This document shows, in pieces, positions 26,649 to 35,286 of a stretch of DNA of 35,382 nt. Location: IMG/VR virus record IMGVR_UViG_3300012920_000118, positions 1 through 35,382 of that record. The stretch is one strand, 5' to 3'. Source of the stretch: a virus. The notes below the pieces were generated by a model. That model saw nothing but the letters and a program-made list of their open reading frames with translations. It had not been told where the DNA came from and did not search any database. Both the position numbers and the translations under genes were made by a program. Position 1 is the stretch's first letter; each line of letters opens with the position of its first letter.

Positions 26649-26692
26649 AGTTCTACCTTTCTCAAATAAAGTTTATGCTCTTCAGCGGTTAA

Positions 26693-26792
26693 GATACGGC
26701 CCTACAGGAGTGGAGAGCCGTATCGATATGTATTAACATACGCTAATCGTTAAGTGAGGAAATGTACGGATCTAGGAGTGTCGTCCAGACCC
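26693..26792 (-). other. Intercistronic region with two stem-loops
   Basis: Between the ribbon-helix-helix gene and the next gene (175 bases without a gene). On the - strand there is GGGTCT-GGA / TCC-AGATCC (26792-26768) with one G-T pair and a bulge, and a perfect 8-bp GATACGGC / GCCGTATC (26724-26717 with 26700-26693) closing a 16-nt loop. Neither is followed by a T run, so they are not ordinary terminators. Processing sites, mRNA stabilisers or protein-binding elements are possible. Confidence 0.45.
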
Positions 26793-26823
26793 GGAAAGGA
26801 AACCCCACCCAACTAATCGACAA

Positions 26824-26991: not shown

Positions 26992-27208
26992 TTGTCGTCC
27001 TTCCTAATTAATGATGAGGTAGGGGAGAAACCAGGTAATCCACAAAAACCCTGGAACCTACCTCATCTTTTTTCGCAATTCGTTTGAGTGGTCTGGAGCT
27101 AATGTGGGAAATAAAAAAAACCACAATCAGACTCCTCAAACTGGCATCTCGGTGGCAAGGAGGAGGGTTATGCGAACCCCTATGAAAAACAACCACCTTG
27201 ATGTTATC
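26992..27208 (-). ncRNA. Highly structured 5' leader RNA of the replication operon
   Basis: From the predicted transcription start near 27208 to the ATG at 26991, the transcript folds into three large stem-loops. H1 pairs 27203-27193 with 27155-27145 (two mismatches) and encloses a GGGTT/AACCC hairpin. H2 pairs GTTTGAG/CTCAAAC plus GTCTG/CAGAC (27141-27082) and encloses TGTGG/CCACA. H3 is a perfect 11-bp stem (27067-27057 with 27023-27013) enclosing CCAGG/CCTGG. H3 ends just before the ribosome site. The nested pairing of each arm is hard to explain by chance. It could be a cis-regulatory leader, a stable phage RNA or a processed small RNA; the class is not recognised. Also, in the + direction H3 is followed by TTTTTT. 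Confidence 0.6.
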
Positions 27209-30998: not shown

Positions 30999-31508
30999 AT
31001 GCCAAAAGAAAAATTTCTTACAAATAGACAAAAAGAATTTGCCAAATTTATAGTTGAAGGCACTTATTCCAATGCGGAATGTGCTAGAAAAGCTGGATAT
31101 TCTGAAGGACAAGCAGCTAAAACTGCAAGTCTTTTGCTCAATGGTAAAGATTTTCCCCTGGTTGTGGATCATGTTAAAGATCTTCGTGAAGCCAGAGAAA
31201 AGAAATATGGTGTCACTTTGTTGGGCCAGTTGAAAAGATTCTCTGATCTTTCCAAGGGAGCAGAAGAGTCTGGACAATTTTCTGCTGCGGTCAATGCAGA
31301 GAAGATTAGATCTGCACTTGGTGGTCTTGCCATAGATAAAAGAGAAACAAATGTTGTACATCAATTAGATAAACTTTCTCGTGAAGAGATCGTGGCTCGA
31401 CTCTCTGAGATCAGAAAAGCCTATCCGTCTGCATTCATTGAAGGTGATTATGAGGTAGTCGGAGAGGACAAGGGGAGGAAAACCCTCTCCGACAAGGGCG
31501 TTGATTAG
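30999..31508 (+). CDS. terS: Terminase small subunit
   Basis: 169 residues. N-terminal LTNRQKEFAKFIVEGTYSNA then ECARKAGYSEGQAAKTAS is the helix-turn-helix DNA-recognition domain of the phage terminase small subunit. The middle (VKDLREAREKKYGVTLLGQL) is the helical oligomerisation region, and the C-terminal part (LSREEIVARLSEIRKAYPSA) is also family-like. It recognises concatemeric phage DNA and hands it to the large subunit, which is not in the window. The gene is a + strand island between leftward genes, with its own promoter. Its 3' end encodes a strong hairpin. Confidence 0.85.
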   Translation: MPKEKFLTNRQKEFAKFIVEGTYSNAECARKAGYSEGQAAKTASLLLNGKDFPLVVDHVKDLREAREKKYGVTLLGQLKRFSDLSKGAEESGQFSAAVNAEKIRSALGGLAIDKRETNVVHQLDKLSREEIVARLSEIRKAYPSAFIEGDYEVVGEDKGRKTLSDKGVD

Positions 31509-34781: not shown

Positions 34782-35204
34782 ATGAAAGAAAAAAACTTTT
34801 TTTTGAACATAAAAAAACAACTTCCAAAAGGTTGTTTTATCCAGAAAATAGAAAATAAATTTAATTCTGGTTTTCCAGATTTAATAATAATAACTGATAA
34901 ATTGCCCTTGTTTATTGAGTTAAAATCGCCAATAAAAGGAAATAGGATAACTGTGGAAAAGTCCCAGATATCAATACATTTGAGAATACAAGCCAATAAT
35001 TACATTTCTTTTTTCTTGGTTCGTGACCCTTTGACCTCTGATCTATTTTTATTTGACGGTGGTAAACTCTGCACTTTTATCTCTGTCCACCTTTGCACTC
35101 CGTCTCTGTCCGCCTCCCTTCCAGGTTACCTGGATCACGGAGATCTGGTGCGGGTGTTGCAAACTGCGAATCGGGAAGCACGAATCAGATCGCAAAGAAA
35201 ATGA
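34782..35204 (+). CDS. VRR-NUC (PD-(D/E)XK) nuclease
   Basis: 140 residues. The VRR-NUC core is visible in the first ~80: FIQKIENKFNSGFPDLIII (G30, D33), PLFIELKSP (E46, K48), VEKSQISIHLR (Q62) and a closing strand YISFFLVRDP. Such phage nucleases cut branched or flapped DNA. The last ~55 residues depart from the family: they are encoded by GC-rich, repeat-containing DNA and look like read-through of non-coding sequence (LSASLPGYLDHGDL and a basic end). The original stop may have been lost, or the island inserted in the gene end. No ribosome site is seen. Confidence 0.72.
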   Translation: MKEKNFFLNIKKQLPKGCFIQKIENKFNSGFPDLIIITDKLPLFIELKSPIKGNRITVEKSQISIHLRIQANNYISFFLVRDPLTSDLFLFDGGKLCTFISVHLCTPSLSASLPGYLDHGDLVRVLQTANREARIRSQRK

Positions 35205-35205
35205 A
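35055..35205. other. GC-rich, repeat-containing island
   Basis: This block is clearly richer in G and C than its AT-rich surroundings. It contains a near-repeat CTCTGTCCACC / CTCTGTCCGCC about 23 bases apart, the palindrome CCAGGT-T-ACCTGG (35121-35133) and several TGCGAATC/TGCGATTC-like words. It coincides with the atypical C-terminal part of the VRR-NUC gene. Could be an attachment, packaging or recombination site, or imported DNA. Confidence 0.45.
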
Positions 35206-35240
35206 ATGGTCGCTCTGCGATTCTTTGCGATCTTTATTTA
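35187..35240 (+). terminator. Inverted repeat, candidate + strand terminator after the VRR-NUC gene
   Basis: AGATCGCAAAG (35187-35197) pairs perfectly with CTTTGCGATCT (35223-35233) across a 25-nt loop and is followed by TTATTTA. Long loop and interrupted T run make it a moderate candidate. Confidence 0.45.
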
Positions 35241-35257: not shown

Positions 35258-35286
35258 AAAAAAATCCAGAGGCTACGCCTCTGGAT
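35258..35286 (-). terminator. Strong rho-independent terminator of the - strand gene at the right edge
   Basis: ATCCAGAGGC and GCCTCTGGAT (35286-35277 and 35273-35264 on the - strand) form a perfect 10-bp stem with a 3-nt loop, directly followed by a T tract. The loop contains part of the stop codon of the gene it terminates. Confidence 0.85.

Follow-up and report, generated by a model that had tools for sequence, protein, structure and literature searches.

The put RNA of phage HK022 lies at the start of its transcript and acts on RNA polymerase, and the preQ1 riboswitches are H-type pseudoknots that sequester the ribosome-binding site. Detailed knowledge of the post-transcriptional control of phage replication genes comes from very few phages, mainly T4. 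In this phage, the translational operator of gene 43 is a hairpin some 40 nt ahead of the start codon and that of gene 32 a pseudoknot 67 nt ahead of its own; the rpsO operator is likewise a pseudoknot and sequesters the ribosome-binding site (PMC3014915). The stabilization of bacterial mRNAs by 5' hairpins is established, and 5' stem-loops that stabilize the message, or leaders that insulate its ribosome-binding site, have been described for ompA and papA of E. coli and aprE of B. subtilis (PMC3997798).

The leader analyzed here has features in common with several of these systems. As in the ompA, papA and aprE leaders, structure rather than sequence is kept, and an untranslated 5' hairpin stands beside a ribosome site that is, in this case, predicted to be open. 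Unlike them, it belongs to a phage operon and has up to three nested hairpins with conserved pyrimidine-rich loops, the terminal one being anchored to the start codon. With the T4 gene 32 and gene 43 operators it has in common that a phage mRNA is structured ahead of its replication genes, yet it has no invariant loop sequence, no pairing between loop and Shine-Dalgarno sequence above chance and no known ligand, and the first gene behind it encodes a 55-aa protein instead of a single-stranded DNA-binding protein or a polymerase. Its stem-loops come directly after an early phage promoter, as those of HK022 put do, but their position follows the start codon.

The leader and its operon

The window, that is, the whole stretch of 35,382 nt that was analyzed, comes from IMG/VR and represents part of an uncultured phage. 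Its plus strand encodes the structural genes and its minus strand the replication genes. The leader lies on the minus strand, between a gene whose small product matches PHROG 5018 (27712-27251, minus), itself next to a gene for an SNF2-type helicase (29142-27697, minus), and a gene for a 55-aa protein (26991-26824, minus; ATG at 26991-26989). The latter is the first gene of a replication operon that continues, on the same strand, with a DUF7307 gene (26648-26082), a Pam3 gp34-like gene (26082-25303) and the genes for an AEP primase (25245-23707), an SF1 helicase (23707-22172) and a DNA polymerase A (21901-19991). The 55-aa gene is conserved among the aligned relatives. Its putatively ribbon-helix-helix-like product had no sequence match in Pfam, PHROG or PDB, its AlphaFold model is a low-confidence monomer with two helices (residues 13-27 and 39-54), and a role as a ribbon-helix-helix repressor is unproven. 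Among cultured phages, protein searches gave Phage DSL-LC04 (L284, OR003939) as the closest for the replication module, judged by its primase (39% identity); its replication genes form a similar run. A DNA search of a phage collection gave no match to the leader sequence in cultured phages.

The putative promoter of the operon (27242-27214, minus) consists of a -35 box TTGACA (27242-27237), a 17-nt spacer and a -10 box ATAAGA (27219-27214) preceded by TGTG, and it would start transcription about 5 nt before the first hairpin. The TTGAC motif and its context are kept at the same place in all clades with hairpins and in those shown without them. The promoter had been called strong from the sequence alone; this holds for its perfect and conserved -35 box, but the -10 box is weak and a consensus promoter scan did not call the promoter.

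Three stems lie end to end between positions 27203 and 27013 of the minus strand, each with a second hairpin inside, and all three form in the minimum free energy structure. The first, H1 (27203-27145), pairs CATC(aa)GGTGG with CCACC(ga)GATG in 9 of 11 outer positions and encloses the stem GGGTT-cgcat-AACCC (27179-27165). H2 (27141-27082) has 7+5 outer pairs (GTTTGAG + GTCTG with CAGAC + CTCAAAC), a U-rich loop and an inner stem TGTGG/CCACA (27125-27103). The terminal hairpin, H3 (27067-27013), is built on an exact 11-bp inverted repeat, GATGAGGTAGG/CCTACCTCATC, which gives 11 outer pairs around an inner stem CCAGG/CCTGG (27054-27031) and a pyrimidine-rich internal loop, UUUCUCC. The Shine-Dalgarno region of the 55-aa gene, AGGAAGGA (27005-26998, minus), follows 7 nt after H3. 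These are exactly the stems that the sequence-only reading had described, and its placing of them, from some five bases after the predicted transcription start to just before the ribosome site, is also correct.

The leader has a minimum free energy of -65 kcal/mol (z of -1.9, with 6 of 200 shuffles equally low; z of -2.5 in a second shuffle comparison, with 2 of 150 equally low), and this is the lowest value among 89 compared minus-strand windows of 217 nt. The local sum of the three hairpins alone is not exceptional (z of -1.2). Among the exact inverted repeats of the leader only the 11-bp stem of H3 stands out, and over the whole window there is no clear excess of long exact inverted repeats. 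The evidence for structure from the single sequence is moderate and would leave doubt; the case rests on the comparison with homologues. A 62-aa reading frame (27196-27008) spans the hairpins, but a protein-coding leader was rejected on account of indels of 1-2 nt in near-identical relatives.

Conservation and position of the hairpins

Protein searches yielded 282 IMG/VR loci, which were reduced to 88 loci with distinct leaders, and the gene order is conserved across these 88. In close relatives of the window, whose helicases are 97-100% identical, all three hairpins are present and changes in both arms keep the pairing. H1 folds alike in L002 and L003 and has one pair fewer (A.C) in L004 and L005; both arms of H2 are altered in L002 (GTCTG/CAGAC to GCTG/CAGC) with the pairing kept; and the inner stem of H3 is either CCAGG/CCTGG or, in L004 and L005, CCAAGG/CCTTGG. 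More distant members have one long hairpin beside the ribosome site, made with other arms (GTGGAGAGGGTATG, GAGGTAG, GGGTAGGG or GTTGGGGTGG), and their set of upstream hairpins varies. Counterparts of H3 were found in 46 leaders.

The stems were compared from their own pairing, and a MAFFT alignment of the terminal hairpins, which misaligned the arms, was not used for counts. Aligned on their core, 24 distinct outer stems showed double-sided Watson-Crick differences at 12 positions. This count pools several clades, and base-by-base homology may not hold for all of their stems. Covariation inside the GGGTAGGG group alone is weak, with 3 double-changed pairs that were matched by 46 of 500 shuffles. 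The double-sided changes are thus taken to speak strongly for a kept hairpin and less strongly for an unbroken descent of every single pair. A covariance model (R1) built from one clade recovered the leader in near sister groups at E < 0.01, gave only E 0.11 for L002, which belongs to the window's own clade, and did not report the window's H3. Since its sequence scores fail to span the clades, homology of the terminal hairpin over all of them is argued from position and architecture.

Rfam gave no match at the gathering score in the window and in 10 relatives, and the best sub-threshold matches, at E up to 10, were unrelated. The RNA class had not been recognized in the sequence-only reading either, and the cis-acting RNA leader proposed there is supported by the compensatory changes present in the homologues. 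A lack of covariation, which that reading had named as its refutation, was looked for and is not what the homologues show. Structured leaders are a known kind of element on phage mRNAs; the present arrangement and family are uncatalogued in the collections searched. What emerges is a large family of uncultured phages in which such a leader has been kept in evolution together with a separate hairpin, complementary to the Shine-Dalgarno sequence, before the primase gene.

In a tree of the DUF7307 proteins, the hairpin beside the ribosome site is found in every row of one clade (32 rows, support 97/99), including L230 and L204, whose sequences both carry it, and L261 is the only hairpin-bearing row outside that clade. 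Most of the other loci outside have retained promoter and 55-aa gene and lack the hairpin, as exemplified by a leader of 66 nt. Because most members of the sister clades have the same promoter and gene without hairpins, the element is dispensable. Outside the clade, L260 and L234 carry similar long hairpins after the promoter and before a different first gene, of 80 aa; the element therefore accompanies whichever ribosome site comes first behind the promoter and is not tied to the 55-aa gene. Some sister phages (L260, L234 and L058) have, between promoter and 55-aa gene, a gene for a homologous 80-aa protein (M[GS]NN[IV]K[AS]F.IKNV...): the operon begins with a slot for variable cargo.

The terminal hairpin is anchored to the start codon. 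In the 46 leaders its end lies 12-33 nt from the start codon (sd 4.9), whereas its start lies 32-175 nt from the -35 box (sd 37.8). It begins near the predicted transcription start in L191 and L219 and much later in other relatives.

Stems kept at the DNA level would give G.T and A.C intermediates equally often. Strand-neutral calls of the leader stems contained 13 G.U/U.G and 8 A.C/C.A cases, an excess that is no more than suggestive of conservation at the RNA level. The A.C/C.A cases are located at stem junctions or go back to shared ancestry; the core has none of them, and its non-Watson-Crick intermediates are of the G.U type when read on the mRNA strand.

Proposed function of the leader and its alternatives

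The loops of the terminal hairpins are 74% pyrimidine, compared with 42% (sd 10%) in background windows of the same strand, and many of them contain UUCC or CUCC. Folding, which is blind to pseudoknots and proteins, gave a predicted accessibility of the Shine-Dalgarno sequence of 0.55 in native leaders against 0.32 with shuffled upstream sequence, and a higher value in 18 of 20 loci (0.52 against 0.36 in the window); the shuffled control retains the pyrimidine-rich upstream composition, which is itself likely to occlude the Shine-Dalgarno sequence. A switch is not needed since the hairpins are predicted to leave the ribosome site open, and they look like packaging that keeps this site free.

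The reading we prefer, with a probability of about 0.4, is that of a structured cis-acting 5' leader of the replication-operon mRNA that insulates the first ribosome site and probably stabilizes the transcript. The hairpins would act in cis and at the RNA level, with the terminal hairpin set against the first ribosome site and the upstream hairpins, where present, joining in. Their local stems would tie up purine-rich stretches as well as the pyrimidine-rich ones that resemble an anti-Shine-Dalgarno sequence, and would in this way leave the Shine-Dalgarno sequence open. Hairpins at the 5' end probably also slow the decay of the long transcript, and the pyrimidine-rich loops may be a docking site for ribosomal protein S1 or for a phage protein. 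The most likely role is thus to maintain access for the ribosome and the stability of the message, and not to work as a switch. A counterpoint to stabilization is that the usual stabilizer hairpin stands at the very 5' end, whereas here the terminal hairpin starts up to about 140 nt inside the transcript. If this function is true, the locus would offer a tractable model of RNA-level control over the amounts of phage replication proteins, as well as two RNA families to seek in viral metagenomes.

Pyrimidine-rich loops conserved on variable stems next to a Shine-Dalgarno sequence, at the head of a replication operon, also recall autogenous control. A protein of the operon (gp34-like, DUF7307, primase, polymerase or 55-aa) would bind the loops and stop translation, as gp32 and gp43 of T4 do at the pseudoknot of gene 32 and the hairpin of gene 43 (PMC3014915). 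This is the alternative that survives best, but we hold it to be unlikely: no loop sequence is invariant across the clades, the proteins of the operon are kept in hairpin-less clades, and in L260 and L234 the element precedes a different first gene. Rather improbable is a processing or stabilizing site at which RNase III or RNase E would cleave in or near the hairpins and give read-through transcripts a protected 5' end. Long imperfect stems between genes, arms that change fast in sequence while the shape is kept and a variable number of hairpins would suit such a site; yet the outer stems are often of only 7-12 bp, and a promoter lies just upstream in all the clades shown, which means that processing is not needed to make the 5' end.

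That the terminal loops pair with the Shine-Dalgarno sequence of the same gene and hide it is improbable, in spite of the CUCC or UUCC runs in the loops and of the 7 bp that L193 and L201 are able to form with their own Shine-Dalgarno sequence. In 43 leaders the best match between loop and Shine-Dalgarno sequence scored 13.2, compared with 13.9 for shuffled loops, and a pseudoknot in the leader was rejected since the match is not above that of shuffled loops. Against the Shine-Dalgarno sequence of the next gene (DUF7307) the loops scored slightly higher than their shuffled versions (17.5 against 15.8, median p 0.30).

We regard as very improbable a transcription element near the promoter, either an RNA antiterminator like put or a pause site, even though the hairpins of the window begin about 5 nt after the predicted start and a terminator-like hairpin with a U-rich tail is found downstream, before the primase gene. 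The conserved hairpin holds its distance to the start codon and not to the promoter, and the same primase hairpin occurs in clades without leader hairpins. An antiterminator of the put type was rejected because a fixed position at the transcript start was not found, the distance to the -35 box ranging over 32-175 nt and that to the start codon over 12-33 nt. A DNA-level element, whether an operator or a replication origin that uses cruciforms, would explain why a gap in the replication region holds inverted repeats but is of the same low standing, as it is disfavored by the G.U intermediates of the core, which lacks A.C or C.A cases, by the modest overall excess of 13 to 8 and by the strand-specific composition of the loops. 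Two further suggestions of the sequence-only reading were not supported. The hairpins as a DNA target of the ribbon-helix-helix protein are at odds with the G.U core intermediates, with the presence of the gene in hairpin-less sister clades and with the hairpins before another gene in L260 and L234, and a separate stable small RNA is not indicated because no terminator follows the hairpins.

The primase-gap hairpin and other structured sites

The covariance model R1 also drew attention to the gap between the gp34-like and primase genes (25302-25246, minus). It contains a hairpin of 11-12 bp, GGGGTCACATAC-GCUCCUCCAA-GTATGTGGCCC, followed by a U-rich stretch and by the primase Shine-Dalgarno sequence UUGGAG, to which the loop CUCCAA is complementary. 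In 70 distinct loci, the few most distant of which differ, the hairpin is mostly of 10-13 bp, starts about 5-11 nt after the gp34 stop codon and is followed by the U-rich stretch and the primase Shine-Dalgarno sequence. The loop appears to co-vary in part with the Shine-Dalgarno sequence across clades: CUCCA(A) faces (U)UGGAG in most loci, ACACUC faces GAGUGU in another clade, ACGCUC pairs with GAGUGU by wobble in L202 and L211, and CUCCA faces UGGGG where the Shine-Dalgarno sequence has changed. The mean score of this pairing is 13.2, compared with 10.6 for shuffled sequences. The stem covaries, with 98.4% of cells paired, a value reached by none of 500 shuffles. The largest group shows no variation in the second helix, between loop and Shine-Dalgarno sequence. 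For the clade that has the other loop, all 500 shuffles scored lower in covariation, although this helix contributes few of the changes and 3 of 13 rows pair in another register. G.U outnumber A.C intermediates by 44 to 5 in 41 distinct stems (related sequences being counted more than once), which points to a clear RNA-strand bias.

Concerning its geometry, a long first stem and a second stem of 5-6 bp with no or few nucleotides between them fit an H-type pseudoknot, which a ribosome ending gp34 would open. Similar to preQ1 riboswitches and the rpsO operator, the loop could pair with the Shine-Dalgarno sequence immediately downstream, the second stem stacking onto the first. Unlike in those systems, no ligand is known and the U-rich tail suits an intrinsic terminator just as well. 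This hairpin would be a better candidate for a true switch than the leader. The primase gap of Phage DSL-LC04 contains a plain hairpin with a GAAA loop and no loop complementary to the Shine-Dalgarno sequence. A wider proposal is an undescribed phage RNA family that coordinates the whole replication operon, in which expression of the first genes would be set through binding of an operon protein or of the ribosome to the pyrimidine-rich leader loops, and ribosomes finishing gp34 would open the primase-gap hairpin and free the primase Shine-Dalgarno sequence by melting of the loop pseudoknot. We consider the two parts taken together doubtful, and place them below the autogenous operator and above the RNase site.

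A second structured gap, of 175 nt, precedes the DUF7307 gene (26823-26649, minus; z of -3.6). Its large hairpins, at 26700-26815 (minus) between the 55-aa and DUF7307 genes, occur only in the window's own clade; L007 to L011 have a different hairpin (GAGTGAGAGTAAT...) in their place and the other clades have neither. Near the DUF7307 start, a short hairpin GCU-GAAG-AGC is followed by AUAAACUUUA (26668-26686, minus). Hairpins with a GAAG loop are present there in all the clades shown, on GCC/GGC, ACC/GGU or GCU/AGC stems, and the loop could pair with a downstream CUUU.

Toward the end of the window, a GC-rich hairpin of 10 bp followed by TTTTTT (35264-35286, minus) is probably an intrinsic terminator; near it is an inverted repeat of 13 bp whose loop measures 21 nt (35187-35233, minus). 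A perfect 10-bp inverted repeat (31458-31493) falls within the final part of a plus-strand open frame (30999-31508) and comes directly behind a minus-strand sequence of the TTGACT type.
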